Positions 5,353 to 62,376 of a stretch of DNA of 64,000 nucleotides are shown here, piece by piece. The stretch is from Flavobacteriaceae bacterium UJ101. Lineage in GTDB: Bacteria > Bacteroidota > Bacteroidia > Flavobacteriales > UJ101. The number at the start of each line of letters is the position of its first letter. Positions within the stretch are counted from its first letter, which is position 1. The stretch covers positions 1,498,501 through 1,562,500 of the forward strand of contig CP016269.1 of assembly GCA_001880285.1 (NCBI GenBank), written 5' to 3'. The notes under the pieces were generated by a model. It searched no databases and was not told the DNA's origin. It was given only the letters and a program-made list of their open reading frames with translations. Both the position numbers and the translations under genes were made by a program.

Positions 5353-5377
5353 ACCCTTCTCAATAGAAGGGTTTTAG
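5353..5377 (+). terminator. Terminator after the UMP synthase-like gene
   Basis: ACCCTTCT and AGAAGGGT form an 8-bp stem around a CAAT loop, followed by TTTTAG on the plus strand. It lies between convergent genes and touches the stop codon of the response regulator. Confidence 0.7.
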
Positions 5378-5979
5378 TTGACAATTCCTAAATGCATGGC
5401 TTTTTTAATTAATCCGGCAGGACTTTTTACACCCATTTTAAAAAAGATATTTTTTCTATGGGTTTCTACGGTACGTTTACTTAAGAATAATTTTTCGGCA
5501 ATTTCTTCGTTTGTTAACTCTTGAGCGATCAATTGAACAATTTGTTTTTCACGTTTGCTTAAAATGTTTTTATTGAAAATATATTCTTCAATAGGTTGTT
5601 CGGTATAATTGAAATACGTTTTGTCTTCATTTACAATACCTCGAATAGCTTCTAAAACTTCTATTTTAGGAGTTTCTTTCAATAAGTAGCCTTGAATTCC
5701 TGTATAAGAATGCATATTTTGAAACATACTTAAAACCAACAATTTAATATGTGGGCTTTGTTTTTTTATAGCCTTAATCAGCTCTATACCATTCATTTCG
5801 GGCATAGCAATATCGGTAAGAATAATATCCGGAGTATTTAATTGGAGAAAATCGAGTAAAGCCGAAGCTGAAGTGGTTTGAAAAACAACATCGATATCAT
5901 CTTGTTTAGAAAGAACAGCTTCTAATCCGTCTAAAAACAATTGGTGATCATCAACTAGTGCAATTTGTATTTTTTTCAT
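5374..5979 (-). CDS. NarL/LuxR-type response regulator (system 1)
   Basis: The 201-residue protein has a receiver domain with acidic pocket Asp10-Asp11, phosphoacceptor Asp56 in ILTDIAMPEMNG and Lys in GYLLKE, then a LuxR-type helix-turn-helix at about 140-199 (LSKREKQIVQLIAQELTNEE onward). It should bind DNA as a dimer when phosphorylated. Its start overlaps the stop of the kinase gene by 4 bases (ATGA), so the two are translationally coupled. The nearby dyads at 7886-7901 and 10866-10881 have the 7-2-7 layout used by NarL-family regulators and are its most likely sites. It is closely similar to the regulator at 30445-31056. Confidence 0.95.
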   Translation of the reverse strand: MKKIQIALVDDHQLFLDGLEAVLSKQDDIDVVFQTTSASALLDFLQLNTPDIILTDIAMPEMNGIELIKAIKKQSPHIKLLVLSMFQNMHSYTGIQGYLLKETPKIEVLEAIRGIVNEDKTYFNYTEQPIEEYIFNKNILSKREKQIVQLIAQELTNEEIAEKLFLSKRTVETHRKNIFFKMGVKSPAGLIKKAMHLGIVN

Positions 5980-7868
5980 AGGTTTTGTGGTATGGTTAAT
6001 ACAATAGTGGTTCCGCTTTTAGGATGTGAATCTATTTCCCAATTTCCATTTAAAGCGTGTATACGTTCTTCTATATTGTGTAGCCCAATTCCTTTTTGAA
6101 GTAAAGATACATCAAACCCTTTTCCATTATCTTCATAAATGATGTATAAAAAAGTATCTCGTAAGGTGAAGCTAAGGAGAACTTGTGTGGCATGAGCATG
6201 TTTATAAGTATTATGAAATAATTCTTGAATAATTCGGTAGAGATGATGTTTTTGAAAAGAATTAAGTGTGTCTAAAACTTCAGAAGGAAAGAGGGTCATC
6301 TCAATATTGAAGATCTTCTTTTTTTCATATTGAATTTTTACTTCTGTTAAAAGCTCTTTTAAAGTATGTTCTTGAATATAATTGACACTTAAATTATGAG
6401 AAATAGAGCGTAATTCAGCAAAAGTATTTTCCAGTTTGTGGGTTACACTTCCTAATTCAGGGTGGTTAAGCTCATGGTTTAAATCTTCTAAATTTAATTT
6501 TAAACCCGCTAATTGAGCTCCAACACCATCATGAATTTCTTTGGCTAAGCGATTTCGTTCCTGATCTTGTCCTTTTAATAATGATTCAGCTTGTTCTAAT
6601 GCTTTTTCTTTTTCTAAACGTTGTACTTCCTTTTCATTTAATAGTTTTTGTGTTTTAACCCGGTTACGGTAGAATAACAATAATAAAAGCAAAGGAATTA
6701 CTAAGGCAACAGCACCGTATATAAATTGTTTTCGTTTGGAAGCTTCTAGTTCTTTTTCTTTAGTTAATAAACCAATTTGTTGGTCTTTCTTTTCTACTTC
6801 ATATTCTGTACGAACTTGAGCAAACTCTCGTTCTTTATCAATTTGAAATAAGCTGTCATTGAGTTCTTTATGTTTTGAAAAGTACGTGTAGGCTTTTTCA
6901 TAGTTTTTCATATCGAGAAAAAGTTGTGATATTTTATAATAAAGAATGGATTTGGTAGGGTCAGAAACTCTTTTTGAACTTGAATATTCTTCTGCTTTTT
7001 GATAATAAAATAAGGATTTTTTATATTGTTTTTTGTAGTTGTAGTATAAGGCAAGTAGACCATTATAAATAAAATAACGGTCATTTTCTTTTGAAGGTTG
7101 TATTAATCTATTGGCTCTTTCTAAATAATTATATGCTAGATTTAAATCTAAACTTTTTTCTTCTAAAAGAAGTGAAGCCATATTTAAATATAGCATAGAA
7201 AGTTGTTGATGATCATGAAGAGATGAAGCATATTTAATTCCTTTTTTATAATAATATAGGGCACTATCTTGATTTTGATTATTTCTAAAAAATTCTCCCA
7301 TTTTATTACAATTATCTATAATATTAATAGAATCATTAAGTAGAAAAGAATAGTTTAAAGCTTTGTTATAATGATAAAGGGTTTTTATAGAATCATTTTT
7401 AAGATTATGTAAATCTGCAATAAAACTATTCAGAAAGATTATTGATTTATTAAAATGATATTTTTCTGATAATTTTAGTGCTTTTTGATAAAAATTTAAA
7501 GCAGAAGTATAATTGTTAGTTTCTTTTTCTAAAAAACCTAACCTTTGTAAGCATATTTGAACCCCTCTACGAAAATTACTTTTATTTGAAAAAGAAAGAG
7601 CTTTAATTGTATTGTTTTTAGCTCTATTGATTTTTTTTTGTTCATAAAAAATATCACCTAAATTAAAGTAATATTTAGCTAATAGAGTGTCATTTTGTAA
7701 TTGATGTGCTTTTTTTAATCCTTTTTCTAAATAGAAATAAGAAGAATCCAAATTAGAAGATCGAGTTTGTTTTGATTGTTTTAAAAGAACTTCAGCTTCT
7801 TTTCTTAATGTTTGGGAATAAGTAAAAGAATATAAAAGAAAAAAGAATATAAAGCTGTTTTTTATCAT
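5976..7868 (-). CDS. TPR-repeat sensor histidine kinase (system 1)
   Basis: This 630-residue kinase begins with a signal peptide (FIFFFLLYSFTYSQ), continues with about 330 residues of tetratricopeptide repeats expected in the periplasm, crosses the membrane once near 381-401 (GAVALVIPLLLLLLFY), and has a coiled-coil linker before a HisKA_3 dimerisation domain. The phosphoacceptor is His446 in KEIHDGVGAQLAG; the N box is near NTYKHAHA and the G box is DNGKGFD. It should pass phosphate to the regulator it overlaps. The signal is unknown; TPR sensors usually bind proteins or peptides. It is divergent from the secreted-protein cluster beginning at 7954. Confidence 0.93.
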   Translation of the reverse strand: MIKNSFIFFFLLYSFTYSQTLRKEAEVLLKQSKQTRSSNLDSSYFYLEKGLKKAHQLQNDTLLAKYYFNLGDIFYEQKKINRAKNNTIKALSFSNKSNFRRGVQICLQRLGFLEKETNNYTSALNFYQKALKLSEKYHFNKSIIFLNSFIADLHNLKNDSIKTLYHYNKALNYSFLLNDSINIIDNCNKMGEFFRNNQNQDSALYYYKKGIKYASSLHDHQQLSMLYLNMASLLLEEKSLDLNLAYNYLERANRLIQPSKENDRYFIYNGLLALYYNYKKQYKKSLFYYQKAEEYSSSKRVSDPTKSILYYKISQLFLDMKNYEKAYTYFSKHKELNDSLFQIDKEREFAQVRTEYEVEKKDQQIGLLTKEKELEASKRKQFIYGAVALVIPLLLLLLFYRNRVKTQKLLNEKEVQRLEKEKALEQAESLLKGQDQERNRLAKEIHDGVGAQLAGLKLNLEDLNHELNHPELGSVTHKLENTFAELRSISHNLSVNYIQEHTLKELLTEVKIQYEKKKIFNIEMTLFPSEVLDTLNSFQKHHLYRIIQELFHNTYKHAHATQVLLSFTLRDTFLYIIYEDNGKGFDVSLLQKGIGLHNIEERIHALNGNWEIDSHPKSGTTIVLTIPQNL

Positions 7869-7885
7869 AAGAAAAGGTTAAAAAA

Positions 7886-7901
7886 TACCCTCTAGATGGT
7901 A
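7886..7901. promoter_or_regulatory. Candidate response-regulator operator, copy 1
   Basis: TACCCTCTAGATGGTA is an imperfect dyad that splits into two 7-base half-sites (TACCCTC and, inverted, TACCATC) around two bases. It lies between the kinase gene and the secreted-protein cluster, ends 22 bases before a TACCTTTG -7 box, and sits where a missing -33 element would be, as expected for an activator site. A near copy occurs at 10866-10881. Confidence 0.5.
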
Positions 7902-7923
7902 CGTCAAAAAACGGGTAAGTAAA

Positions 7924-7931
7924 TACCTTTG
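7924..7931 (+). promoter_or_regulatory. -7 promoter box for the secreted-protein cluster
   Basis: TACCTTTG lies 22 bases before the ATG at 7954. No TTTG -33 element is found at the right distance, and the candidate operator just upstream may substitute for it. Confidence 0.5.
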
Positions 7932-7953
7932 CTAAATTAAAAAAAACAGACTT

Positions 7954-8520
7954 ATGAACCAATATTTGCGTTACTATTTAGGTGTTTTTCTACTATTTGG
8001 AGTAATAACATCAGTGAGTGCTAACAATGGAAATCTTATTATTTATACCAATTCGGATGTGATTTACAATATTTACCGAAATGATCACCCTAATCCTCCA
8101 GATCCTTTAAACTACAATGTTTTAATTAAATCGGATACATCAGGTGCTTTATTGGACATTTATGATATTTCCCTTTTTGTTCAACCTGGTTATGAAGTAA
8201 AGTTAGAAGGTAATGTGTATTTGCATTCACGAAGTAGTCATTCTAATATTGGATCTAAAGGAGATGGTAAAGGAGAGTCTTTACGAAGATACTTTGAAGC
8301 ATCGATAGCAAAGAAGGTAGAAAATCAAATCACTATTTTATCTAAAGAACCTGTACAAGAGTATATTATTTACGATATGATGGGACGTGAAATTAATCGT
8401 AAAAAAATAATACCTACGGTTTCGGTTGACATCTTTGTAGGTGATCTAGATTCAGGTATTTATAAAGTGAAGATCATTTCAGAGAATGGTACAACAGATA
8501 CACAATCTATTATTAAATAA
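7954..8520 (+). CDS. Small secreted protein with T9SS-like C-terminal domain
   Basis: The 188-residue protein has a signal peptide ending near VSANNG and no recognised catalytic motif. The last 70 or so residues (YIIYDMMGREINRKK, then LDSGIYKVKIISENG and TDTQSIIK) follow the pattern of T9SS type A sorting domains, which are cleaved as the cargo crosses the outer membrane. The middle contains NDHPNPPDPLNYN and a Ser/His-rich stretch. It is the first gene downstream of candidate operator 1 and is followed after 11 bases by the next secreted protein, so 7954-10801 is probably one operon. Function is not recognised. Confidence 0.75.
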   Translation: MNQYLRYYLGVFLLFGVITSVSANNGNLIIYTNSDVIYNIYRNDHPNPPDPLNYNVLIKSDTSGALLDIYDISLFVQPGYEVKLEGNVYLHSRSSHSNIGSKGDGKGESLRRYFEASIAKKVENQITILSKEPVQEYIIYDMMGREINRKKIIPTVSVDIFVGDLDSGIYKVKIISENGTTDTQSIIK

Positions 8521-8531
8521 AAACTAAAATC

Positions 8532-9509
8532 ATGAAAAAAATAAATAGAATACTAATGAAAAAACAGTTAATGTATAGTCTTTTAATAGTATGTGGAATG
8601 TTACGTATTTTAGGACAAGAAATTACAGATCCAGCAGCTTTCCAAGCAATGTCAGGGACTACAACACTTTCTTCCAAAGATGGAGCAATTTACTTAAGTG
8701 GTTCATTTCCTAATGCACGATCTACAGCAATATATTCACAAAATACGAGCATTTATATTGAATTTAAGGCAGGGGATGATATAACTAAAGGAGAAAGAAT
8801 GCGTCAACATATTGGATTTACAAATGATGGTCCTTATGCTTATAGAGGTTTTTTATTACATAAAGATTCCAATCAAGTGGATCTAGTGGAGGGAAGTACT
8901 ACAATTCAAAATTTAGGTACATATAACCCAGGAGATATTTTTAGAATTGAAAAAAAGGATAATACTGTTTCGTATATCCAAAACGGAGTAGTTTTATTTG
9001 AAGAAGTGTTTTCTTTAAATGATTTTCGTATTGGAATTGCATCCTCAGATACCAATGGTTATATAGAAGGTATTAAGTTAGGGACTCCAACGGATTCTTT
9101 TTATTCTGTTTCAATGGAAGAAGCACGTATTAATAAATTAAAAGTAAATACCGATACACTACCCGATGGTTATCAAGTAGCTGTGAAGGGCGAAATGATT
9201 ATTGAAGGAATTATGATTAAGGATTTTACTTCATGGCCCGATTATGTTTTTGAGGAAAATTATCCGTTGAAAGACTTAAAAGTATTAGAAAAAGAAATAC
9301 AACATTTAGGCCATTTACCAAATGTACCTTCTGCTAAAAAAGTTTTAAAAGAAGGTGTTGATTTAGGTGACATGAATGTAATTCTACTTGAAAAGATTGA
9401 AGAACTTACTTTATACACGATTCAGCAACAAAAATTGTTTGAAAAACAACAAGAAGAATTGAATCAGTTAATGGATGAAATAGAAAAGAAAAATATTAAA
9501 AAACAATAA
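8532..9509 (+). CDS. Secreted modular protein: domain A plus coiled tail
   Basis: The 325-residue protein has a signal sequence (LMYSLLIVCGMLRILGQ), then a domain here called A (about 45-190: GAIYLSGSFPNAR, ERMRQHIGFTNDGPYAYRGF, PGDIFRIEK, FRIGIASSDTNGYIEGIK), which looks like a beta-sandwich binding module and is repeated in the 1227-residue protein at 10938. The tail (about 197-320) has the widespread Bacteroidota surface-protein ending WPDYVFEENYPLKDLK, HLPNVPSA and LLEKIEELTLYTIQQQK, finishing in a Glu/Lys/Gln coiled coil. The same tail ends the next gene. Only two bases separate it from that gene. The binding target is unknown. Confidence 0.8.
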   Translation: MKKINRILMKKQLMYSLLIVCGMLRILGQEITDPAAFQAMSGTTTLSSKDGAIYLSGSFPNARSTAIYSQNTSIYIEFKAGDDITKGERMRQHIGFTNDGPYAYRGFLLHKDSNQVDLVEGSTTIQNLGTYNPGDIFRIEKKDNTVSYIQNGVVLFEEVFSLNDFRIGIASSDTNGYIEGIKLGTPTDSFYSVSMEEARINKLKVNTDTLPDGYQVAVKGEMIIEGIMIKDFTSWPDYVFEENYPLKDLKVLEKEIQHLGHLPNVPSAKKVLKEGVDLGDMNVILLEKIEELTLYTIQQQKLFEKQQEELNQLMDEIEKKNIKKQ

Positions 9510-9511
9510 AA

Positions 9512-10801
9512 ATGAGGATTTTAACTCTTTTATGTATACTGTTTTTTGAAGCTTCTTTACTAGCTGATGAAAATGTAACTTGGTTTGAAACTACAGTCTC
9601 AAAAAATAGAATAATTAAAAATCAAAATAGTGATACTCAATCAACAGGAAGTAATAATTCGATTACGGTAGCTTATGCTCCTTGTCAAAGTACAACAGAT
9701 ATTGATAATGGTATTATCAAATTCAATTTAAATACGAATGAATTGCCTCCTTATCAATATACAATTGAAGGAACAAATAATGATTATAGTTTAACAGGTA
9801 TTTTAGAAAGTAAGATAGGAGAAGTAACCGATATACCAAATGGAACGTATACCGTGACTGTAAAAAGTATAACCGAATTAGACCGTAGTACCTTTCTTTT
9901 AAAAGATGTTTCCTACGATCAGAATGCTGATATGTATAAATCTGAACGAGGTTCTGTTTGGAATATGCGATTACAATCAGGTACACAAACTCCAATAATC
10001 AATCAAGGAAAAATTTCTTTTCAATATACTAGTTCTACTTATGGACGTCCTATTGTACACTTAACCAGTAGAACAAATTCAACACTTTATGCAAGACAAT
10101 GGGATCCAAATGAACATACTTGGCTTGGAGGAACTGATGAAATACAGGTACAGGAGAATAACACAACGGTTCATACAGTTCCTCATGTTGATCATAATAT
10201 CTATTCAATTGAGGTTACAGATAGTGTTCGTTATTTGGTCAATGATTCTGTAGTGTACACATCAACTCAAGAAGTACAACCTGATTATCGATTTACAGCT
10301 TCTCCTCATCAATATGGAAATCTGATTAATTTTAAAATAGTTACATACGGATCACAAATTGAAGAAAGTCAAATTACCGTTAATGCACCAAGTTGTGAAA
10401 CGATATCGTATGGATATCCTATAGAAATTGAAGAAGCGCGAATTAATCAAACAAAAATTAATACAGATAGTTTACCCACAGATTATAATTTGGCTGTCAA
10501 TGGTGAAATGATTATTGAAGGTATCTTGATTAAAGATTTCACCTATTGGCCAGATTATGTGTTTGAAAAAGATTATCCGTTAAAAGATTTAAAAATAGTA
10601 GAAAAGGAAATTCAAAATTTAGGACATTTGCCTGATGTACCCTCAAAAGAGTATGTTTTAAAACATGGAGTAGATGTAGGAGAAATGAAGGTAACATTAT
10701 TAGAGAAAATTGAAGAATTAACATTGTATATCATTCAACAGCAAAAAATATTAGATAAACAACAAAAACAAATTAATCAACTTAAGGAAATAGTAGAATA
10801 G
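9512..10801 (+). CDS. Secreted modular protein: domain B plus coiled tail
   Basis: The 429-residue protein has a signal sequence, then a region here called B (about 50-300). B starts with an SprB-like repeat (NGIIKFNL, YQYTIEG, IPNGTYTVTVKS) and continues with a second module (VWNMRLQSGTQ, GRPIVHLTSR, LYARQWDPNEHTWLG, FTASPHQYGNL). The same B region occurs in the 1227-residue protein at 10938. The C-terminus carries the WPDYVFEKDYPLKDLK and LLEKIEELTLYIIQQQK tail shared with the preceding gene. SprB repeats are known from the flavobacterial gliding adhesin, which suggests a cell-surface or matrix role. It is the last gene before a strong terminator. Confidence 0.8.
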   Translation: MRILTLLCILFFEASLLADENVTWFETTVSKNRIIKNQNSDTQSTGSNNSITVAYAPCQSTTDIDNGIIKFNLNTNELPPYQYTIEGTNNDYSLTGILESKIGEVTDIPNGTYTVTVKSITELDRSTFLLKDVSYDQNADMYKSERGSVWNMRLQSGTQTPIINQGKISFQYTSSTYGRPIVHLTSRTNSTLYARQWDPNEHTWLGGTDEIQVQENNTTVHTVPHVDHNIYSIEVTDSVRYLVNDSVVYTSTQEVQPDYRFTASPHQYGNLINFKIVTYGSQIEESQITVNAPSCETISYGYPIEIEEARINQTKINTDSLPTDYNLAVNGEMIIEGILIKDFTYWPDYVFEKDYPLKDLKIVEKEIQNLGHLPDVPSKEYVLKHGVDVGEMKVTLLEKIEELTLYIIQQQKILDKQQKQINQLKEIVE

Positions 10802-10821
10802 GAACTATGATTAAAATTTAA

Positions 10822-10857
10822 AAATCCATCCTGAAACTATTTCAGGATGGATTTTTT
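10822..10857 (+). terminator. Terminator of the 7954-10801 operon
   Basis: A 15-bp perfect stem (AAATCCATCCTGAAA with its complement, loop CTA) runs into six T residues. Confidence 0.9.
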
Positions 10858-10865
10858 ATGAAATA

Positions 10866-10881
10866 TACCCTATTGAGGGTA
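10866..10881. promoter_or_regulatory. Candidate response-regulator operator, copy 2
   Basis: TACCCTATTGAGGGTA is a dyad that reads as two 7-base half-sites (TACCCTA and, inverted, TACCCTC) around two bases, 56 bases before the ATG at 10938. It matches copy 1 in arrangement and in 12 of 16 positions. A degenerate -7 box, TGTTTTTG, follows at 10896-10903. It could instead be a weak hairpin, but lacks an immediate T tract. Confidence 0.5.
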
Positions 10882-10937
10882 TGTTTTTAATAAGATGTTT
10901 TTGAGAACTTTATAGAATAATTATAAAATTTAAAAAC

Positions 10938-13900
10938 ATGCAAAAATTTACTATTCTACTGTTCTTTTTATTGAGTACAGTTTTATTGGGTAGAGAATAT
11001 GATATGGTTGAAACCATTCCCATTTCTCAAAAAACGATTTTGAACTCTTTAGCAAATGAAGAGATTATTATAGATCCGAATCATTTTATTGCTTTATCAC
11101 CTACAACTTCCTTATCTCAAAAAGAGGGTTTAATTTATTTAAGTGGTGCTTTTTCGAATGCACGTACCAAGGAGTTGTATTCAAAAAGTAGTGATATATA
11201 TGTTGAATTTAAAGCAGGAGGTGATGTAGATAAAGGTATACGTATGCGTCAACATGTAGGATTTACGAATAATGGACCTTATTCCTATCGGGGGTTTTTA
11301 TTACATAAAGATTCTGATAGAGTAGATCTTTATTTTAATTGGGATGATGTTAGAGAAAATATTTCAACGTATAACCCAGGTGATATATTTAGGATAGAAA
11401 AGCTAGGAGATAAGGTTTATTATAAACAAAATGGAGTAATATTGTATGAAGAAACCTTTGTATTAAATGATTTTTTAATAGGAATAGCATCATCAGACCA
11501 AAATGGTTATATTGAGGGTATTAAAGTAGGAACACCAGTTGCTCCCATTACAGTAGAGAACCCTCCTTGTTCAACGGATGGAGGGATTATTAAATTTAAT
11601 TTGACAAGTGGAGAAGCTCCTTATCAATATACAATCAAAGGAGAAAATAATAGTTTTTCATTAAAAGGAGTTTTAAATGAAAAAATAGGGGAAGTAACAG
11701 GAATTCCAAATGGTAATTACCAAGTAAGTGTTCAAAGTATAAGTGAGATAGATCGTAATACGTTTTCATTAGTTAATGTAAGCTATAATGAAACTATAGA
11801 TACTTATACAAAGACTTCGGGTTCAGGTTGGAATATGCGTTTACAATCGGGAAATCAAACATCTAAAATAGAAAAAGGAATCCTTTCATTTAAATATACT
11901 GGTTCTAGTTATGGGCGTCCTATAGTTCATTTAACTAGTAGAGGAGGGGCCACACTTTATGCGAGGCAATGGGATCCGAATGAACATACGTGGCTTGGAG
12001 AAGGTAATGAAGCTTATGTGCAGGAGAATAATGCGACAGTTTATACAGTATCTCATAGTAATGATAATGAATATTCAATAGAAGTTACGGATAAAGTACG
12101 TTATTTAGTAAATGGAGAAGTAGTGTTTACCTCTACCCAAATTGTAAAGCCAGAGTATCGATTTACGGCATCACCTCATCAATATGGTAATTTAAAGGAA
12201 TTTAGAGTAATAAATTATGAAGGAGATATTGTACAAGAGAATGTTACAGTCAATGTTAAAAGCTGTGAAGAGTTAGAGGTTAAAGTTATAAGTCCTTTAT
12301 ATAAATTTGATACTCATAATCAGATTAATAGCTTAGGTATTTCGTATACTGAAATTGCTAAAAGTTTAATAGATGATAGTGGAAATAAATTTATAGATAA
12401 AGTAACAGATTATACGAAACAAACTGTAGTAGATGCACTACAAAATGGTAATTATTTTTATCATTTAATTAATACGGAACAAGGGTCTATGGATCAATTA
12501 TTTTTTGATGGTGCAGAGGATAATTATCCTATGACGGTTTTACAAGATGAATTGATTTCGTTTGGAATGTTATTAAAAAATAACACATCTGAAGTTCAAA
12601 CATATCATATTAATACCAATCTTCCTAGTACGGATAAAAATATTATTATAAGACGTGAGGCTAATATTACGGAATGGTGGAGTTTATATTCAATTGCTGG
12701 ACGAAATGATGATTCTAATATTAGAATTATAGGAGACCCTTTAACGATTGTATCTCATGAAATATTAGAACCTTTAGATACAAGATTTGATAGGTATGTA
12801 CACCCTGATCCTGAAAAAGGGATAGGAAGAAACTATATAAAGTTATACCCCAATGAGACTATTAAATTAGTTTTTGAATTTACAGGGGATTCTGATTTTT
12901 CAAACTCAGAGAATAATTATTTTGTAAAATTTGAAAATCAATCAATAGACAAATCTGTTTTAAATAAAGATCTTTCAATTAATTTGTTAACAAACGAATT
13001 ACCTAATATTAAAATACCTAATATTTCTTTTGACAATGGTAACCAAACAAGATCATGGCTGAATTATTATGATGGTTACTTTTATAATACAGAAGATGAT
13101 TCCAGTAGTGTATGGAATAATTTTGTCAGAACGTCAAAAAAAGCTCCAAGTTTTTATCCTCTTTTCAAAAAAAGATATAATTTAAACTCTACGCTATTAG
13201 GTAATGCTGAATTTAATTCTAATGGTATTCTTAATGAATTAAGAAAAAATATATCAGATAGCGATAAGTTTTTTTGGTTTACTCCAATCTCTTATATAAA
13301 TCAAGGTCAAGAAGGTATAAATGCTTATATAAATCGTTTAGATGAAATTTTAGTTCAAGCAGAACAAAATAGAAATGGATGGGGATATGAAAATTTTGGA
13401 TATGATATAACATTTGAAGAAATTAAGAATACAATATATATTTATCCTATTGATGAAATAAGTTTTCCTAACCCTAAAGAGTATCCTGAAGAATATGCAG
13501 ATTTTAAGTCTAGAATTTTACCATGGTATGGGAATTTATTAAAAGCATTAAAAGAAAACGGTTATAAAACTATACTTACATTTGGTTTAAATAGAGAATG
13601 GGAAATGAAAAATAATAATGAAGATTTAAATCTAAAATTAGAAACACTAGTTCCTCATTTAAATGTAGTTGTTGATGCAATGTTAGCCGGAAAACCAATA
13701 CATCAAGGTAAATTAAATGAATTACAACAAAATTTTAATTTTGAAATTTGGAATTATGATTCAGAACCAGCAAGAGGAAATGAAAATATTCTTCGCACAA
13801 AAACAAATAACCTAACATCTGTATTAGCTGGTAATATGGGATATAGTATATTTCGTTTTGAGGATTATGACAATGGAGATAGTGCATGGAGAGCTAGAGA

Positions 13901-14621
13901 TTTAGGTTTGGATGATAGTGGTAATCCTATTATAGGATTACATAGAGGTTTAATTTATTTAACAGATGTAACTACAGCCAAAATTAATGAGCATTGGAAT
14001 CCTTTGACTAAAGAATATAAAAATACAGGTAGAATAAGTCTATATTCGGGACGTCAAAATATTTGGTACTGGATGGCAACCTCAGCTCGTTTATTAGCTT
14101 ATAATGAATCAGTAAACTTAGCTAAAATGATTAAATACCTGCAAGAACTTGATAATAATACAGTTAATTCTAAATTAGAAGAGTATAAAACTAGAGTTAG
14201 TACAATTAACAGTGCTTCAAGAGCGGTAAAAGGTATTGGTTATTTAAATCAAAAACAATTAACTGATTTAAATACACTTTCAAATGAAATAAAGCAATTG
14301 TATGCTGCTCATTATCAGGAAAACACATCATCAAGAAGAGTGGAAGAAAAATCAAAAGAACTTCAGACATTTGAAAAACCAACTTCATTTACTATAGTTT
14401 ACCCAAATCCGACGAATGGAATGGTAAATGTAAAAGCAGAAAAAGATATTAAAGCATGGAAAATGGTGAGTATGTCAGGTAAAATGGTTGGACATGGAGA
14501 ATTTAAAGCTCCAAAACGTACTTTTGTTACTCATATTGGGAATCAATCAGGAGGTTTATATGTGATACAGATAATTTATACAGATGGAACCTCTGAGAGT
14601 AAAAAAGTTATGAAAAGATAA
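10938..14621 (+). CDS. Large T9SS-secreted multidomain protein (domains A and B, unknown central domain, CTD)
   Basis: The 1227-residue protein combines the pieces of its upstream neighbours: signal peptide; domain A (about 50-205, as in the 325-residue protein); domain B with SprB-like repeat (about 215-445, as in the 429-residue protein); a central region of about 680 residues; and a T9SS sorting domain (YPNPTNG near 1152 to the end). The central part contains LPWYGNLLKALKENGYKTIL, FEIWNYDSEPARG and IFRFEDYDNGDSAWRARD, which suggest a TIM-barrel-like hydrolase fold; I cannot assign a family. It has its own candidate operator and terminator. Its CTD segment KDIKAWKMVSMSG is identical to that of the protein at 37292. 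Confidence 0.85.
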   Translation: MQKFTILLFFLLSTVLLGREYDMVETIPISQKTILNSLANEEIIIDPNHFIALSPTTSLSQKEGLIYLSGAFSNARTKELYSKSSDIYVEFKAGGDVDKGIRMRQHVGFTNNGPYSYRGFLLHKDSDRVDLYFNWDDVRENISTYNPGDIFRIEKLGDKVYYKQNGVILYEETFVLNDFLIGIASSDQNGYIEGIKVGTPVAPITVENPPCSTDGGIIKFNLTSGEAPYQYTIKGENNSFSLKGVLNEKIGEVTGIPNGNYQVSVQSISEIDRNTFSLVNVSYNETIDTYTKTSGSGWNMRLQSGNQTSKIEKGILSFKYTGSSYGRPIVHLTSRGGATLYARQWDPNEHTWLGEGNEAYVQENNATVYTVSHSNDNEYSIEVTDKVRYLVNGEVVFTSTQIVKPEYRFTASPHQYGNLKEFRVINYEGDIVQENVTVNVKSCEELEVKVISPLYKFDTHNQINSLGISYTEIAKSLIDDSGNKFIDKVTDYTKQTVVDALQNGNYFYHLINTEQGSMDQLFFDGAEDNYPMTVLQDELISFGMLLKNNTSEVQTYHINTNLPSTDKNIIIRREANITEWWSLYSIAGRNDDSNIRIIGDPLTIVSHEILEPLDTRFDRYVHPDPEKGIGRNYIKLYPNETIKLVFEFTGDSDFSNSENNYFVKFENQSIDKSVLNKDLSINLLTNELPNIKIPNISFDNGNQTRSWLNYYDGYFYNTEDDSSSVWNNFVRTSKKAPSFYPLFKKRYNLNSTLLGNAEFNSNGILNELRKNISDSDKFFWFTPISYINQGQEGINAYINRLDEILVQAEQNRNGWGYENFGYDITFEEIKNTIYIYPIDEISFPNPKEYPEEYADFKSRILPWYGNLLKALKENGYKTILTFGLNREWEMKNNNEDLNLKLETLVPHLNVVVDAMLAGKPIHQGKLNELQQNFNFEIWNYDSEPARGNENILRTKTNNLTSVLAGNMGYSIFRFEDYDNGDSAWRARDLGLDDSGNPIIGLHRGLIYLTDVTTAKINEHWNPLTKEYKNTGRISLYSGRQNIWYWMATSARLLAYNESVNLAKMIKYLQELDNNTVNSKLEEYKTRVSTINSASRAVKGIGYLNQKQLTDLNTLSNEIKQLYAAHYQENTSSRRVEEKSKELQTFEKPTSFTIVYPNPTNGMVNVKAEKDIKAWKMVSMSGKMVGHGEFKAPKRTFVTHIGNQSGGLYVIQIIYTDGTSESKKVMKR

Positions 14622-14637: not shown

Positions 14638-14704
14638 TTCTGATAATTTATCAGAATTATACAAGTTGAATCCATCTCGAAATAGCTTCGGGGTGGATTT
14701 TTTT
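14638..14704 (+). terminator. Palindrome and terminator after the 1227-residue protein gene
   Basis: TTCTGATAA and its complement form a hairpin at 14638-14656 without a T tract. A second hairpin at 14669-14697 (AATCCATCTCGAA paired with TTCGGGGTGGATT, some G-T pairs) runs into a T tract and is the likely terminator. Confidence 0.8.
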
Positions 14705-30444: not shown

Positions 30445-31056
30445 TCACTTTATAATTCCTAGATGTAGCGCTCTTTTGATTAAACCGGCTGTATTTTTAG
30501 CACCTAATTTAAAAAGAATGTTTTTACGATGAGTTTGTACAGTTCGAAGACTAATAAACATTATTTTAGCTATTTCTTCATTGGTTAATTCTTTTGCTAT
30601 ATAATGAACAACTTCTTTTTCTCGCTTAGTTAAAATATCCTGAGAAAATATATATTCTTCAATAGGTTCTTGGGTATAATTTAAATAGGTTTTTCCATCA
30701 TATACAATACCTCGGATAGCTTCTATAACCTTTGATTGTGAAGTCTCTTTTAATAGATAACCATTAATTCCTTGGTAAGAATGCATGTTTTCAAACATAC
30801 TTAAGACAAGAATCTTAGTAGCTTTATTAAATTGCTTAATGGCTTTAATAAATTCAATTCCATTCATTTCAGGCATAGCAATATCCGTTATAATTAAATC
30901 AATAGAAGATGTGGTGTTTTGTATAAAATGAAGGGCCTCTTTTGCAGAAGATGTGGTATAAATGATTTCTATATCAGGTTCTCCTTCTAATATTGAAACC
31001 AAACCATCTAAAAATAATTGATGATCATCAATTAACAACAGTTTTATTTTTTTCAT
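30445..31056 (-). CDS. NarL/LuxR-type response regulator (system 2)
   Basis: The 203-residue protein is a paralogue of the regulator at 5374-5979, with which it shares long stretches such as DDHQLFLDGL, TDIAMPEMNGIE and the C-terminal helix-turn-helix pattern. Asp10-Asp11 and phosphoacceptor Asp58 are present. The recognition-helix region reads MFISLRTVQTHRKNILFKLG, against LFLSKRTVETHRKNIFFKMG in system 1, so the DNA targets may overlap or have diverged slightly. It lies 12 bases after its kinase gene. Confidence 0.95.
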   Translation of the reverse strand: MKKIKLLLIDDHQLFLDGLVSILEGEPDIEIIYTTSSAKEALHFIQNTTSSIDLIITDIAMPEMNGIEFIKAIKQFNKATKILVLSMFENMHSYQGINGYLLKETSQSKVIEAIRGIVYDGKTYLNYTQEPIEEYIFSQDILTKREKEVVHYIAKELTNEEIAKIMFISLRTVQTHRKNILFKLGAKNTAGLIKRALHLGIIK

Positions 31057-31068
31057 GTAAGTTATAAA

Positions 31069-32931
31069 TTAAACAGGAATATTTATTACAATTATAGATC
31101 CTCTACTCAGTTGAGAATCAATACTTAATTCGCCATTTAATGATTCAACCCTTTCTTCAATATTTTGTAACCCAATTCCTTTTGGTTGTAAAGATACATT
31201 AAATCCTTTTCCATTATCTTCAAAAAATAAGTTAATATTATCTTTTTGTTTTGTTATAGATATACTGACTTCGGTAGCTGAAGCATGTTTACGAGTATTA
31301 TTTAAAAGTTCTTGTATAATCCGATATAAATGATGTTTTTGGATTTGATTAATGAATTCAAAATCCTCTTTTGGAAAAAGAGATAGTTCAATAGAAAAAG
31401 AGGACTGTTTTTGATAATATTGCTTTAATTTAGTTAATAGTTCAGCTAAGGAATGATCTTGGATATAATTGATACTTAAATTATGAGAAATAGACCGTAA
31501 TTCTGAAAAAGAGTTTTCTAGCTTAGAAGAAATAGATTTTAAGTTTTTATCTTGATATTTTTGATTGATTTTTTCTAAATTTAGTTTTAATCCAGCTAAT
31601 TGAGCTCCTACACCATCGTGAATTTCTTTAGCAATACGATTCCGTTCTTGATCTTGTCCTTTTAATAAAGCATTGGCTTGTTCTAGCTCTTTTTCTTTTT
31701 CCAAACGTTCTATTTCTTGTTTTTTCTTTAAATTTTGGGTCTTAGAACGATACCAAAAGACTATTCCTAAAAAGACTAATAAACCTAAAGAACCTAAAAT
31801 AATTTGTTTTTTACGTAGTGCCTCAACTTCTTTTTCTTTATTTAAAAGTTCTATTTGTTGATCTTTATTATCTACTTCATATTCGGTACGAATTCTATCA
31901 AATTCGGCAGTTTTTTCTTTATAATATAGAATAGAATCAAGATGATACATTTTTTTAAAATATTTTAATGATTTTTTGTAATCACCTATTTTTTCTTCAA
32001 GTTTACTAGACCTTAGATAAAGCATTAATTCTTGTCTTTTGGAAACTTGATCATTTATATGTTTTTCGGATAATTCATATGCCTTTTTAGCTTTATTATA
32101 TTGTTTTAATTGAAGAAAAAGATTCCCTTTAAGTAAGTATAGCATGAAAAGGAAATCTTTATCTTTTGGTAGGTTTTGTTGTTCTAATTGTTTTAAATAA
32201 TTATGAATGTATACTAATGTATTAGGTTTATTTAATTTTATAAGAGTATTTATATAATTAATATGTATGGAGGGCTCTTTTATTTTTGGATCTAAATCAA
32301 TTGCTTTTTGAAAGAAAAACTGAGCACTATCATATTTTTTTGTAAGAAAAAATACACTACCTATAGCTTTATTAAGTTTTATTTGTTTAACAGAATCATT
32401 AAATTGAATATTATTTTTTGCCTTTTTATAATGGTATAAACTTTCTTTAAAATTACTTTGTAAAGCATTTAATTCTCCTATTTTAGTATGAATTAGAAAA
32501 AATGATCCTACCTTATGTTGATGATAAATATTTAATGCTTTTTGAAAATAGTATAAGGCTTTAGTATAATTTTTTTGATCTTTCATTACTAAACCGAGAT
32601 CTTCATAACAATATTCTACTCCTTCATAAAAGTGACCTCTTTTAGCATGAAATAATGCTTTTTGAAGAAAGTATTCATTAGAATCGTAAAGTTTATGATT
32701 ATAATGATGAATGTATAAGTTATAATAAGCACGAGTCAATAAGGTATCGTTGGGTATTTTTGATGCTTTTTTAATCGCTTGGTATAAAAAATTTGTGCTA
32801 ATAGATAATGAATCCGATTGATTAGCTTTTTCAATTAAATTAAAGGCATCTTTGTTTAAGTTGCTTTGAGCACTAATAACAGTATAAAAGCATAATAAGA
32901 AAACTATTTTCCATATAGATTTTTGCAGCAT
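31069..32931 (-). CDS. TPR-repeat sensor histidine kinase (system 2)
   Basis: The 620-residue kinase has a signal peptide (IVFLLCFYTVISAQ), a periplasmic TPR region of roughly 330 residues, a transmembrane helix near 375-394 (IILGSLGLLVFLGIVFW), a linker and a HisKA_3 kinase with His438 in KEIHDGVGAQLAG, N box NTRKHASA and G box DNGKGFN. The kinase half is much more like its paralogue at 5976-7868 than the TPR half, which suggests that the two sense different signals but use the same chemistry. Unlike system 1 it has no secreted-protein cluster beside it. Confidence 0.93.
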   Translation of the reverse strand: MLQKSIWKIVFLLCFYTVISAQSNLNKDAFNLIEKANQSDSLSISTNFLYQAIKKASKIPNDTLLTRAYYNLYIHHYNHKLYDSNEYFLQKALFHAKRGHFYEGVEYCYEDLGLVMKDQKNYTKALYYFQKALNIYHQHKVGSFFLIHTKIGELNALQSNFKESLYHYKKAKNNIQFNDSVKQIKLNKAIGSVFFLTKKYDSAQFFFQKAIDLDPKIKEPSIHINYINTLIKLNKPNTLVYIHNYLKQLEQQNLPKDKDFLFMLYLLKGNLFLQLKQYNKAKKAYELSEKHINDQVSKRQELMLYLRSSKLEEKIGDYKKSLKYFKKMYHLDSILYYKEKTAEFDRIRTEYEVDNKDQQIELLNKEKEVEALRKKQIILGSLGLLVFLGIVFWYRSKTQNLKKKQEIERLEKEKELEQANALLKGQDQERNRIAKEIHDGVGAQLAGLKLNLEKINQKYQDKNLKSISSKLENSFSELRSISHNLSINYIQDHSLAELLTKLKQYYQKQSSFSIELSLFPKEDFEFINQIQKHHLYRIIQELLNNTRKHASATEVSISITKQKDNINLFFEDNGKGFNVSLQPKGIGLQNIEERVESLNGELSIDSQLSRGSIIVINIPV

Positions 32932-37291: not shown

Positions 37292-39154
37292 ATGAAAAGA
37301 GGAAACAAATTTACGAAATTTTTACTGTCGTTAGTCTTTTGTTGTATTGCTAATGTTTTTTTTGCACAAGATTATGTTCAAACATGTAAAGATAGAATCA
37401 ATTTAACTATTGTAGAAGGACAATCTGTTGATATGGTCGTGGGGACGATTACAGTAACCAATAATGGAGCTACAGGAGTTATAGAGGAGGGTACACCGAT
37501 GAGTGAAGAAAGCAAATATGCATCAATTAAAGTTATAACATCAGAAACAGTTCAACTTGCTGAAGGAGAGACAAAAGAAGTTCCTATAAGATTAATAGGT
37601 ACGTATGAGGAACGTGCACCAAGACGTTTGTATTTTGGGTTTAGTGCATTTTTTGGAGATGATAATAATTGTCCGAAACAATTGGAAATAAGAGTTTTGA
37701 CCGATGAAGATGGGGATGGAATAGCAGATGATGATGATAATTGTGTTACGATATCAAATTCAGATCAATTGGATACCGATGGTGATGGTATGGGTGATGC
37801 ATGTGACGATGACGACGATGGCGATGGTGTAATGGATTCAGAAGATGCATGTCCTTTAGTAATAGGTACTATAAATGGTTGTCCAGATAGTGACGGAGAT
37901 GGAATAGCAGACAATGACGACAATTGTGTTATGATGTCAAATCCAGATCAGCTGGATACCGATGGTGATGGTATGGGAGATGTATGTGATCGAGATGATG
38001 ATAATGATGGTGTAATGGATCCAGAAGATGATTGTCCTCTGATTGCAGGACCTGCTTATGGTTGTCCTGATGCAGATGGGGATGGATTCTCAGATAACAA
38101 AGATAATTGCCCTAATACAGCTAATTCAGATCAATTGGATACTGATGGAGATGGGCAAGGAGATGTATGTGATAATGATGATGATGGAGATGGTGTAATG
38201 GATTCAGAAGATGTATGCCCATTAGTATATGGTACAGCAAATGGTTGTCTTGATACCGATGGAGATGGAGTAGCGGATAATGATGATAATTGTCCTAATA
38301 TAGCGAACTCAGACCAATCTGATGTTGATGTTGATGGAATAGGAGATGTATGTGATGATCAAGTTGCGTGTACTATGTCAGAAGCTGTAGATCAGCTTTT
38401 TATAGGTTTCAGTTCGCCTTATAGAAGAGGGCCTATGGGATCTTATGGAATCCCTCACCCAGATATTCCTTATCAGTATTATCAAGGAAATGCTTTAGGA
38501 TCACCTTTTTATCCAGCAGATAATTCTATGCTTATGGATCCTAATAGAGCAATCCATTACAATACACCTTATCCAGCAGGAAGAACTACTTTACTTACAA
38601 AAAGAATTACAACACCTGGGCCAGGTGATTATTCCATTAATTTATATGGTGTAGCTTTAGGACCAGATGTCACTATTTCAGTTTATGTGGATAACGAATT
38701 AGTGGGTACTCAGGGAATGAATTTAGAGGGAGAAGGCTGGGGAGTTATTTCAATTCCTTTTACTTCAAATGGAGGAGGTCATTTGATTAAAATTGATAGT
38801 TATGTACCAGGAACAGATGATATTTGGATAGTAGATGGAAGAGTGTGTGGAGTATCATTACCAACAACTTCAACAAGGGTATTAAGTAGTAACCAGCCTA
38901 TTTTAGAGGAAAACAAACCTAATTTAGTGGTTTACCCTAACCCTGTAAACAACTTAGTGCATATAAAAACAGATAAAGACATTAAAGCATGGAAAATGGT
39001 AAGTATGTCAGGTGAAACAATTGCACAAGGCAAATTTAATATGCCTAAACGTAGATTAAATGTTAATATAGAAAGTCAATTAGGTGGTTTATATATTCTA
39101 AAGGTGATCTATAAAGATGGACAAACAGAGGACAAGAAGATCATGAAGAAGTAG
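37292..39154 (+). CDS. T9SS-secreted protein with thrombospondin type 3 repeats
   Basis: The 620-residue protein has a signal peptide (SLVFCCIANVFFAQ), an Ig-like N-terminal domain (about 27-140), calcium-binding thrombospondin type 3 repeats (about 139-356) rich in DTDGDGMGD and DDDGDGVMD, a beta-rich domain (about 365-530) and a T9SS sorting domain (YPNPVNN to the end, about 548-620). The repeats are a 61-residue unit repeated more than three times at exact 183-base spacing. The CTD is nearly the same as that of the 1227-residue protein at 10938. It should be exported to the surface. No function can be given beyond likely calcium binding and adhesion. Confidence 0.88.
   Translation: MKRGNKFTKFLLSLVFCCIANVFFAQDYVQTCKDRINLTIVEGQSVDMVVGTITVTNNGATGVIEEGTPMSEESKYASIKVITSETVQLAEGETKEVPIRLIGTYEERAPRRLYFGFSAFFGDDNNCPKQLEIRVLTDEDGDGIADDDDNCVTISNSDQLDTDGDGMGDACDDDDDGDGVMDSEDACPLVIGTINGCPDSDGDGIADNDDNCVMMSNPDQLDTDGDGMGDVCDRDDDNDGVMDPEDDCPLIAGPAYGCPDADGDGFSDNKDNCPNTANSDQLDTDGDGQGDVCDNDDDGDGVMDSEDVCPLVYGTANGCLDTDGDGVADNDDNCPNIANSDQSDVDVDGIGDVCDDQVACTMSEAVDQLFIGFSSPYRRGPMGSYGIPHPDIPYQYYQGNALGSPFYPADNSMLMDPNRAIHYNTPYPAGRTTLLTKRITTPGPGDYSINLYGVALGPDVTISVYVDNELVGTQGMNLEGEGWGVISIPFTSNGGGHLIKIDSYVPGTDDIWIVDGRVCGVSLPTTSTRVLSSNQPILEENKPNLVVYPNPVNNLVHIKTDKDIKAWKMVSMSGETIAQGKFNMPKRRLNVNIESQLGGLYILKVIYKDGQTEDKKIMKK
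37705..38358 (+). repeat. 183-base tandem repeat encoding thrombospondin type 3 units
   Basis: Corresponding GATCAATTGGATAC-type segments occur at 37763, 37946, 38129 and 38312, a spacing of exactly 183 bases each time (61 codons). There are about 3.5 units in frame inside the gene at 37292. Confidence 0.9.
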
Positions 39155-59019: not shown

Positions 59020-61172
59020 CTAATTAACTAGAAGTGTTTGTTTATTCCATAACTCTGCATATTTATTATTTAGATTTAATAATGAATGATGGGTTCCTTC
59101 TTCAATGAGTTTCCCTTGTTCTAGAACCACAATTTTATCTGATTTAGCCACGGTACTGAGTCGATGAGCAATAATAATTAAGGTTTTTCCTTGTTCTCCA
59201 AGATTTTGAATGGTTTTTTGAACATATTCTTCTGAAACTGTATCTAAAGAAGAGGTGGCTTCATCTAGAATAATAATTTCGGGATTTTTATATAAGGCTC
59301 GTGCAATAGCAATACGTTGTTTTTGCCCACCTGAGAGTGAAGCCCCATTTTCACCCAGTTGTGTGGTAAAACCATTAGGTAATTGTTCGATAAATTCGAT
59401 GATTCCTAAATCCCGACAAATATCGACAATACATTTTATATCCGGTTCGTAGACACCTACCGCAATATTTTCTATTACATTTCCTGAAAATAAATTCAAT
59501 TCTTGTGGAACAACTCCTACTAAATTTCGAAGATTTTTGTTCTGGATGTAGTTGATGTCGTATTTTCCAATTAAAATATTCCCTTTTTTAATAGGGTATA
59601 GATTTTGAAGAAGCGAAATCAGGGTGGTTTTTCCAGAACCGCTTCCTCCTACAAGAGCGGTTACTTTTCCTTTAGGAATGGTCATGGTAAAATTTTCAAA
59701 GACATTCGCTCGGGTTCCATAACTAAAATCAATATTTTTAAATTGAATGTCTCCAATATCATCTTTTGTTAAGGTCATTTTTTCAGTGGTCTCTTCCCGT
59801 TCTAAATCCATAATTTCAAACAAACGATCGGAAGCAATGAGTGCATTTTGGATCGTTTTATTCATACCAACCAAAGAGGCAATAGGAGAAGTAAAATAGC
59901 CGATTAAAGCATAAAAAGACATCAATTCTCCAGGGGTGATTTCATTATCCAATACATAATAAGCTCCAACCCAAAGGAGTACAATAGTAAAAACACGAGT
60001 TAAAAATTCAGAAGAATAAGTTGTGAAAAAGGCATTTAATCCCGATTTATAAATGGTTCTAAGTAAATGTGTAAAACGTTTTTCCGTTTTGTAATTGGCA
60101 TAATCTTCTATGCCAAATTGCTTAATGGTTTTAACAGAGTTTAGGGATTCTACTAATTGTGATTCCAAATCAGCAGCGGATTCCATTAGTTTACGCTCCG
60201 TTTTTTTGTTTAATTGGTTAATCAAAATATAAATTCCAATATATAGAGGAATGATAAGGGCAATAATTAAGGCTAGTTTCCAATAATAGGTAAACATAAG
60301 TCCAAAAGAAAATAGTACGATAAAGATATTCACGAGCATATCAATAGCTACTTCATTGATAAAAGAACGTATTTTAACCGCATCACCAATGCGAGAAGTA
60401 ATTTCTCCTACTTGCATCGTATCAAAAAAGCGTTGCGGTAATTTTAGTAGATGTTTGTAATAGCCTAGAATAAGCTGAGCATCAATTTTTTGTCCTGTTT
60501 GAAAAACTAAAATACTTTTCATGGAACCAATAAAAATTTGCAAGATGAGAATGATAATCATGGCTATTCCCATAAGGTTCATTAAGTTTTTATTTCCTTC
60601 AATCAGTACATTATCAGTTATTTTTTCAATATAAATAGAGGTTGATAATCCTAAAATAGTATAAATGATCGCACCAAATAGTGCTTCAAATAGTACGGTT
60701 TTATGGGGTCGTACTAAATTCCAAAAGCGACTGTATAGCGATACTTTTTCATTACGAGCTTGAAAAGTGGTATTGGGCTGTAGTAAAACCAGTACTCCTG
60801 TCCATATTTTTTCAAATTCAGTTAGAGAATAGGAATGCATTCTACCATCCCCAGGATCCATGATAGTTACTTTTTTCTTGGTGATTTTATAAATTACAGC
60901 ATAATGTTGTAGTTGTTCTCGGATAATAACATGAGCAATGGCAGGTAAAGGCACGTCAGGAAGGGCATCCATTCCTCCTCGAACGCCTTTGGCATCAAAT
61001 CCTAAACGTTCAGCTCCTTTAATGACACCCAGTACATTAGTACCCCGTTTATCTGTATTAGCATATTGACGGATACGAGCAATGGGTATTTTTATTTGTA
61101 GTAAGCACTGATAGAAGCCAAGCAAGCAGCGCCACAATCGCGTATATCATGTTGTTTGATTTTAATACTCAT
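59020..61172 (-). pseudogene. C39-peptidase ABC exporter, frameshifted in the N-terminal peptidase
   Basis: The gene encodes a peptide exporter of the bacteriocin type: C39 peptidase, six-helix membrane domain and ATPase with VGGSGSGKTTL, LSGGQKQRIAIARAL and IIILDEATSSLD. Starting at the ATG at 61172 the chain reads MSIKIKQHDIRDCGAACLAS, containing catalytic Gln7 and Cys13, but meets TAA at 61092-61094. The remainder (KIPIARIRQYANTDKRG, catalytic HYAVIY and MDPGDG) lies in another frame. One added base near 61092 would join both parts as YYKLKIPIARI, exactly as the family requires. So it is either a recent inactivating deletion or a sequencing error. Partner HlyD is upstream. Confidence 0.85.
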
Positions 61173-61188
61173 GGTTTCTTTTTTATTG

Positions 61189-61264
61189 AGATCCCGAATC
61201 AAGTTCGGGATGACATGGATTGTTTAATTTATTACTTTTTGTCATGTTGAACTCGATTTAGCAT
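61189..61264. repeat. Inverted pair of GTCAT-GAACTTG repeats, copies 2 and 3
   Basis: Copy 2 (61189-61214) lies on the minus strand and begins GTCATCCCGAACTTG; copy 3 (61241-61264) lies on the plus strand and begins GTCATGTTGAACTCG. They face away from each other across 26 bases and could pair as a long imperfect hairpin between the HlyD and ABC genes. Confidence 0.6.
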
Positions 61265-61290
61265 TTTATAGGTTTTACTATTTCTACTTA

Positions 61291-62376
61291 TTAATTACTA
61301 ACTAAATGAGGATTTAACCAATCGTCTAAATCATCATAGAGAATTTCCCAAAGGGTTCTTTTTTGTAAAATAAATCGAGCCGTTAAGGTCATTCCTTTTT
61401 TAAGTTCTCCTTTATAACCATTTGGTAGTGTTAAATAGTTTTGTAGTAATTTATATCGTACTTTAAAAAAGGAGTTATTTTCTTCAAGTGTAATGTTTTG
61501 GTCTATATCGATTACTTGTGCTTTGGCAAGCCCCCATTGGTTATAATTATAAGCATCTATTTGAAGATTAACGTTTTGATGCTTTTGAATTAATCCAATG
61601 TCATTAGTTGAAATATAACATTCTACGATTAAGTCATCCCTTGGAGCAATTTCGGCAATGGTAGTCGAAACATTTAAGAAACTTCCTTTTTGTAAGCCAG
61701 AATAGTTAACAATTTCTCTTCCAATGGGTGCTGTTATTACATAACTTTCTTGTTGTTCATGTAATTGGTTAATATCCGATCGAATATTTTTAATTGTTTC
61801 CTGTAGGTCTCTTTTTTTTGCTTGCCAAGTACTTTTTTGTTGCTCTTTAAGAGAATTTAAACTCATAAGAGAAGCTTCGTATTCATATTCAGCTTCTTCA
61901 AATTCAGAACGAGCAATAACACCTTCTTTGAATAAGGCATTGGAACGATCAAAAGAACGTTTGGTTTGTTTCAATTTAACTTCTAATTCAATTGTTTTTT
62001 GGTTGAATAAAGCCAGCTCTTTTTGAAAAACAGCGGTTTGTAAATTATTGAAAGCTGTTTGTTTGCCTTTAGAGATGAGAAGATTTAAATCATGTATTTG
62101 AGTGTAATAATCAGATTGTAAGTCTTTTTTTAAATGATTTTGAACTTCTAGTTGGTCATCTTCTACAATTAGTAGCGTATCACCTTTCGTTACTTTTTGA
62201 TTGTTTTTTAAATTAATAAATTGAATTCTTCCACTAATAATGGTATTGATAGAAGTATTTTCCTTTTCACTTCTGATAATACCTCTTGAACTAGAAGATA
62301 CATCTATTTTGATAAAGTAGGCAGTCAAAAAACCTAAGATAATACTAAGTAATGTGATCCAGTATAATTTTCTCAT
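61291..62376 (-). CDS. HlyD-family periplasmic adaptor of a peptide exporter
   Basis: The 361-residue protein has one N-terminal membrane helix (about 4-20: LYWITLLSIILGFLTAY), two lipoyl half-motifs (IISGRIQFINLKNNQKVTKG and ITAPIGREIVNYSGLQKG) flanking a long coiled coil (about 85-210) and a beta-barrel with LIVECYISTNDIG. It is the membrane-fusion partner of the C39 ABC exporter downstream and would link it to an outer-membrane TolC-type channel. The start may be the ATG at 62376 or a TTG at 62391. Confidence 0.9.
   Translation of the reverse strand: MRKLYWITLLSIILGFLTAYFIKIDVSSSSRGIIRSEKENTSINTIISGRIQFINLKNNQKVTKGDTLLIVEDDQLEVQNHLKKDLQSDYYTQIHDLNLLISKGKQTAFNNLQTAVFQKELALFNQKTIELEVKLKQTKRSFDRSNALFKEGVIARSEFEEAEYEYEASLMSLNSLKEQQKSTWQAKKRDLQETIKNIRSDINQLHEQQESYVITAPIGREIVNYSGLQKGSFLNVSTTIAEIAPRDDLIVECYISTNDIGLIQKHQNVNLQIDAYNYNQWGLAKAQVIDIDQNITLEENNSFFKVRYKLLQNYLTLPNGYKGELKKGMTLTARFILQKRTLWEILYDDLDDWLNPHLVSN

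Follow-up and report, generated by a model that had tools for sequence, protein, structure and literature searches.

In Porphyromonas gingivalis the FimS/FimR two-component system combines a kinase carrying periplasmic tetratricopeptide repeats (TPR) with a regulator that activates a surface-appendage cluster by binding the promoter at its head, that of the leading gene (PMC11053733, PMC1974823). The PorXY-SigP pathway of the same species is linked to the type IX secretion system (T9SS) and the small sorting-domain protein PorA acts upstream of it (PMC7712824). In Escherichia coli NarL, partner of NarX, activates from a single 7-2-7 site, that is two inverted 7-bp elements with a 2-bp gap, at -44.5 (PMC7419079). 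Here we compare these systems with a locus in a stretch of 64,000 nucleotides (the window, G000:C1:1498501-1562500) of a 3.07-Mb single-contig flavobacterial genome. The locus comprises a TPR sensor kinase (HK1), a NarL-type response regulator (RR1), genes for four secreted proteins (S1 to S4) and two similar inverted repeats, or dyads, each in front of a secreted-protein unit.

FimS/FimR is nearest in logic, with a periplasmic TPR sensor and a response regulator serving surface genes. The targets differ, however, being T9SS sorting-domain and fibre-like proteins here, and no fimbrillin (FimA/Mfa) match was found among S1-S4 with Pfam or NCBIfam. The present locus has a rigidly spaced, conserved dyad whereas a described FimR site was not found; this comparison with FimR/FimS is by description, not by sequence. 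A regulator of Porphyromonas cangingivalis is 39% identical to RR1. The regulator family, the operator of inverted heptamers in 7-2-7 layout and a geometry suited to single-site activation near -44.5 (PMC7419079) are shared with NarX/NarL. The differences lie in the TPR sensor, the heptamers (TACCATA / TACCCTC), the Bacteroidota -7 box and a regulon that is locus-specific rather than global. Like PorXY-SigP/PorA, the pathway is tied to the T9SS and involves a small sorting-domain protein. PorX has no DNA-binding helix-turn-helix (HTH) and works through SigP; in contrast RR1 carries a GerE-type HTH, no sigma factor gene is present in the locus and the predicted targets are cargo, not the T9SS machine. 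None of the three systems shares all features, in keeping with the initial annotation, which could match the locus to no described system. A description of the locus was not found in the open-access literature (subscription papers lay outside the search) and this Flavobacteriales kinase-regulator/S1 locus is apparently undescribed.

We consider it probable, at about 85%, that RR1 and HK1 constitute a two-component system with its own operator controlling T9SS surface proteins. The reading builds on gene order, motif, spacing, conservation and covariation between operator and recognition helix; binding, activation and sensing are what we infer from them.

The dyads and promoter geometry

The dyads, TACCCTCTAGATGGTA at 7886-7901 and TACCCTATTGAGGGTA at 10866-10881, lie exactly where they were first reported. 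Both are inverted repeats in the 7-2-7 layout of a NarL operator, their arms mismatched at one position; the consensus among relatives is TACCATA-NN-TATGGTA. From their ends it is 52 and 56 nt to the ATG codons of the genes for the 188-aa S1 and the 1227-aa S4, respectively. Out of about 128,000 positions in the window, the corresponding candidate operators take the top two ranks under a matrix derived from other genomes only. Copy 2 (AAATATACCCTATTGAGGGTATGT, 10861-10884, forward strand, with the core dyad given above) scores 16.2 bits and copy 1 (AAAAATACCCTCTAGATGGTACGT, 7881-7904, forward strand) 15.2 bits. In dinucleotide shuffles of both intergenic regions, a post hoc test, an equally similar dyad pair arose in 2 of 5000 cases when only the 7-2-7 layout was allowed and in 12 of 5000 with spacers of 0-10.

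In a genome search the short dyad taken alone does not stand out. The exact degenerate form occurs three times genome-wide, twice in this locus, and with at most one mismatch there are 11 occurrences, three of them in 16S rRNA, against 8 in a reversed control. Neither here nor in a set of 17 genomes do loose counts rise above background. With loose counts so near the control the short dyad alone is not diagnostic, and we make no claim of a global regulon from it.

Promoter geometry is more informative. Full -7 boxes (TAnnTTTG) were sought 5-59 nt from the dyad and all 24 begin 21-23 nt after its core (19 at 23, four at 22 and one at 21). Copy 1 fits this geometry, with TACCTTTG (7924-7931, forward strand), a full match, as the -7 box of the S1-S2-S3 promoter at 22 nt. 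The -7 box of F. psychrophilum spans -12 to -5 (PMC9723704) which, together with the 21-23 nt spacing, puts the dyad centre at about -43. A fixed site beside RNA polymerase in place of the -33/-35 box, as seen with 24 of 24 boxes, is the arrangement of a class-II-type activator promoter. A -33 box had been described as missing at both copies. This holds for copy 1, where there is no TTG at the expected place, and is arguable for copy 2 because a TTG (10873-10875) falls within the dyad.

These features suggest the following mechanism. HK1 would sense something periplasmic by way of its TPR domain and phosphorylate RR1. A dimer of RR1 would then bind the 16-bp dyad TACC-N8-GGTA (7-2-7), centred some 43 bp before the transcription start and, since the dyad sits where the missing -33 box would be, could recruit RNA polymerase from there in class-II-type activation. 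RR1 would thus activate the divergent S1-S2-S3 operon from copy 1 and S4 from copy 2. Paralogous pairs encoded elsewhere in the genome, discussed below, would use their own dyad spellings, each controlling its own surface proteins.

Conservation in the order

The relatives compared belong to other families of the order; the genomes searched include no other from the host's own family. Orthologues of HK1, about 30% identical, occur in these families. In the first five orthologous loci the kinase gene is followed by that of the regulator, and genes for T9SS proteins, one of them a small sorting-domain protein, adjoin the pair. Four of these loci have a sorting-domain protein of about 200 aa encoded directly divergent from the kinase (in L034, the fifth, the gap is longer), then a fibre-like protein with a LLQKIEELTLYTIEQ-like motif at its end and, after that, a larger T9SS protein. 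The regulator alignment adds loci from Flavobacterium, Flavivirga, Aquimarina, Chryseobacterium and Epilithonimonas; Flavivirga jejuensis KACC 14158 is one carrier of the locus. HK1/RR1 and the secreted genes are a conserved Flavobacteriales locus present in dozens of the host's relatives. Two Flavobacterium-type loci (L040, L041) have, 3' of the operator, a short open reading frame in place of S1, then T9SS-like proteins of 770-938 aa.

A Gibbs search of the kinase-S1 intergenic regions of 30 loci, with the host genome excluded, produced the de novo motif AAAAATACCATAATTATGGTAT at 22.7 bits, compared with 10.1-10.4 bits in five shuffled sets, and it lies at the expected place in 27 of the 30. 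Motif scores of at least 20 bits are reached by 29 of 31 orthologous loci, as against two of the 67 loci that surround regulators of other subfamilies. The dyads therefore recur in related genomes, as the same motif in the same place in at least two other families.

The frequency of the dyads is non-random only in part: the loose form is at background, and the extended motif combined with a -7 box exceeds its control in this genome (8 matches against 2). In a second family the extended pattern goes with the kinase, occurring in 14 of 323 genomes, namely 13 of 20 with the kinase and 1 of 303 without (Fisher 2e-17); the pattern was built on positive loci, so only its absence from 302 kinase-negative genomes is unbiased. 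The lone kinase-negative genome (G765) has it in unrelated-looking contigs, and a reversed control pattern is found in none of the 323 genomes of this family. Two genomes of one genus each have a second operator (G770:C11:195359, L225; G791:C1:1078884, L226) in front of the same gene for a 233-aa lipoprotein; the product of an adjoining gene has an end like that of T9SS proteins.

Operator and regulator specificity

Among 31 pairs, operator distance correlates with the distance between DNA-binding domains (r 0.54, or 0.53 as a partial correlation that allows for the receiver; 0 of 2000 permutations), a test inflated by common descent. With receiver distance the correlation is 0.25, and it becomes -0.21 when corrected. 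Among the positions most strongly associated with operator spelling are residues 168 and 169, where the recognition helix starts. Helices with SKH or SRH accompany TACC, those with SIN or SVN accompany TCAC or TAAC...GTGA, and SYY accompanies TACCAAA. Some receiver positions associate with the operator as highly as the helix residues do. At the level of sequence, then, the operator covaries with the recognition helix of its regulator.

Alternative explanations

Are the dyads operators at all, or are they transcription terminators or other RNA hairpins? Copy 2 follows the end of an operon and copy 1 lies within the kinase mRNA, in its short leader. The region 10860-10895 folds (-13.3 kcal/mol, z -4.7) with a T-run at its 3' side, directly after another terminator. 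Copy 1, however, does not fold (z -0.3). Across 23 sites all seven pairs are kept in only two, the inner and second pairs being often broken and not compensated, whereas T1, C4, G13 and A16 are invariant as in a protein site, and a terminator gives no reason for the rigid spacing to the -7 box. We regard this explanation as very unlikely and on pair conservation the RNA-hairpin reading of the dyads was rejected. Chance likeness of two short palindromes in AT-rich intergenic DNA would agree with the genome-wide loose counts, which equal the control; set against the top two ranks under an independent matrix and all of the conservation data, its probability is next to negligible.

A third possibility concerns the direction of control. 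A distance of 17 nt separates the core of copy 1 from the start codon of the kinase gene (5-38 nt in nearly all relatives), and RR1 bound there would block transcription or the leader, so that RR1 might mainly repress the kinase gene, with activation of S1 secondary or absent. Since 17 nt is less than the 21-23 nt to even the -7 box, copy 1 cannot activate the kinase as it would S1. The autoregulation proposed in the initial annotation is thereby narrowed: activation in S1-type geometry is excluded, negative autoregulation is possible and toward the kinase gene the dyad could be repressing or neutral. That repression is the main function we consider unlikely, as the fixed 21-23 nt spacing concerns the S1 promoter, not the kinase, and extra dyads precede secreted genes that have no directly adjoining kinase. 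Nor does the adjacency of HK1-RR1 look incidental. The genome does encode three close paralogous pairs (regulators 56-63% identical), and another NarL-type regulator, RR2 or RR3, might own the site. This is highly improbable when the sites at the HK1 and HK3 loci vary in spelling along with the local regulators and, in relatives, the site accompanies the orthologous pair.

Several points weigh against control by HK1-RR1 in the form proposed. Copy 2 lacks a good -7 box, having only GAACTTTA (10905-10912, forward strand; read from the sequence, 4 of 6 consensus positions) as a possible weak box at 23 nt, with TGTTTTTG at 10896-10903 as an alternative, and its promoter is therefore weaker evidence. 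Copy 2 also forms a 12-bp RNA hairpin followed by T5, directly behind the strong terminator at 10820-10856, and may serve as a terminator hairpin, possibly in addition. Activation rather than repression is argued from geometry alone, the covariation test and the co-occurrence pattern carry the biases of descent and design given above, and the orphan RR2 could bind some of the sites. On balance the conservation, the promoter geometry and the matrix ranks support regulation of the secreted units by RR1 via the shared dyad, as first read.

The locus and its secreted proteins

The gene calls of the locus were upheld, as were the identities of the TPR kinase and the NarL-type regulator. RR1 (5374-5979, reverse strand, 201 aa) belongs to the NarL/FixJ family, with Pfam matches to Response_reg (4e-20) and GerE (2e-19) and a match to the full-length NarL structure 1a04 (E 2e-18). 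It combines a receiver that has the conserved acidic pocket, aspartate and lysine (D10, D11, D56 and K101, invariant in an alignment of eight orthologues) with a GerE/LuxR HTH. HK1 (5976-7868, reverse strand, 630 aa) has a signal peptide and one transmembrane helix, both read from the sequence, a TPR region, and HisKA_3 and HATPase_c domains above the Pfam cut-off, as in NarX-like kinases; orthologues occur in other families, and H446 and the GIGL motif are invariant in eight of them. A terminator-like hairpin (5353-5372; RNA fold -13.4 kcal/mol, z -3.7) marks the 3' end of the HK1-RR1 operon.

On the forward strand are S1 (7954-8520, 188 aa), S2 (8532-9509, 325 aa), S3 (9512-10801, 429 aa) and S4 (10938-14621, 1227 aa). 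All four N-termini are signal-peptide-like, in agreement with the four secreted proteins originally described. S3 is followed by the strong terminator hairpin at 10820-10856, with a 17-bp stem (fold of 10815-10895: -35.5 kcal/mol, z -7.9). This hairpin and another at 14668-14700, both intergenic, share the stem start ATCCATC, and similar ones lie near L024:7340-7460.

The C-termini of S1 and S4 are T9SS type A sorting domains (TIGR04183, 30.1 and 27.7 bits, respectively; cut-off 23); the same profile search did not find the domain in S2 or S3. Across the loci, S1 proteins match TIGR04183 in 20 of 23. Sequence comparison shows S2 and S3 to be fibre-like, S2 with a module A, S3 with a module B, and both with a coiled-coil tail (69% identical). 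S4 combines the two modules: BLAST aligns module A of S2 with S4 residues 44-236 (57% identity) and module B of S3 with residues 204-446 (62%), beyond which are an unknown domain and the sorting domain. The predicted structure of S3 is a beta domain then a C-terminal helix, at low-to-moderate confidence (mean pLDDT 54.6). A fold search returned nothing better than poor, low-TM-score matches to concanavalin-like lectins and glucanases, at most a hint of sugar binding. The model of the unknown domain of S4 is unusable (mean pLDDT 34), and an impression from reading the sequence that this domain looks glycosidase-like was borne out by no result. No homologue of S4 was found in a collection of genome contigs or in 397 other genomes of the order; weak paralogues in the same genome are the only matches.

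The later cargo varies by locus, from a reprolysin-like protease in L035 to the unique 1227-aa protein here, and we view the locus as a switchable surface-display cassette in which the control part stays constant while the cargo changes. In the same window a protein with thrombospondin-type-3-like repeats (37292-39154), the last 98 residues of which are 48% identical to the end of S4, is likely a further T9SS protein; no operator match was found with it. At 59020-63576 an ABC exporter, a secretion adaptor and a membrane-bound LuxR-type regulator occur in series, perhaps a peptide-export locus.

In several genomes (L172-L176) S1 has only 111-113 aa, hardly more than a signal peptide and a T9SS sorting domain, without a cargo domain, and in one genus it is a bare sorting domain plus signal peptide. 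Fjoh_0547 of F. johnsoniae, a 112-aa protein secreted without SprA (PMC7712824), may be of the same kind. Because some S1 proteins are so reduced, and because no gene accompanies the kinase more constantly than S1, S1 might be signal as well as product. The periplasmic TPR of the kinase may read S1, or its sorting domain, in transit, in which case surface-cargo expression would be tuned to secretion capacity and HK1 would be a T9SS flux sensor. The nearest precedent is PorA. We offer both the sensing of S1 and the tuning as rather unlikely suggestions.

Paralogous pairs and further candidate operators

The system was first described as self-contained. This is correct in that, judged by their spellings, the HK1 and HK3 loci each pair a regulator with its own dyad, and incorrect in that the genome has the three paralogous pairs and operators before dispersed secreted-protein genes. 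HK3-RR3 (L024) faces a divergent gene for a small protein whose end resembles a sorting domain. The dyads of this locus, spelled TACCGG..GGGA, precede two secreted-protein units, AAAAATACCGGATTTATGGGATAG (29.6 bits) before the small protein and AAAAATACCGGTTTTCAGGGATTG (20.9 bits) before a fibre-like gene, each with a -7 box at 23 nt. Differently spelled dyads for paralogous pairs suggest that each pair would control its own surface proteins. HK2-RR2 (30445-32931, reverse strand; RR2 63% and HK2 43% identical to RR1 and HK1) has no adjoining secreted partner gene and, upstream, only a half-operator, AAATATACC at about 32948 (best matrix score 3.9 bits). It may act on dispersed sites, for example G000:1306151 or 1606924.

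The genome-wide operator search was made with patterns. Of the eight matches to dyad plus -7 box, three are promoters already found beside HK1 and HK3. Another two, spelled TACCGG, are new; one precedes the gene for a fibre-like protein (L218), the other that for a trypsin-domain T9SS protein of 1157 aa (L219). One match, doubtful, precedes a panE-like gene. Matches at 313024 and 2226543 fall within genes and were taken as chance. A 1364-aa protein whose sorting domain is borderline (L220) has a TACCATTAATATGGTA site in front of its gene. The dyad between LysM-protein and panE-like genes (L026, G000:C1:1306120-1306166) follows the consensus almost perfectly, has its -7 box at 23 nt and may be a regulon member or a terminator.

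Significance

To our knowledge, operators have been identified for few response regulators of the Bacteroidota. The locus provides a predicted one with a defined promoter position and a list of target genes. It also supplies naturally occurring operator variants paired with variants of the recognition helix, over dozens of species and among the paralogues of one genome, which makes a NarL-type specificity code in the phylum directly testable. For the biology of the T9SS, where little is known of how surface proteins are regulated, the reading proposes a conserved control circuit and suggests the small sorting-domain protein S1 as a possible sensor of secretion.

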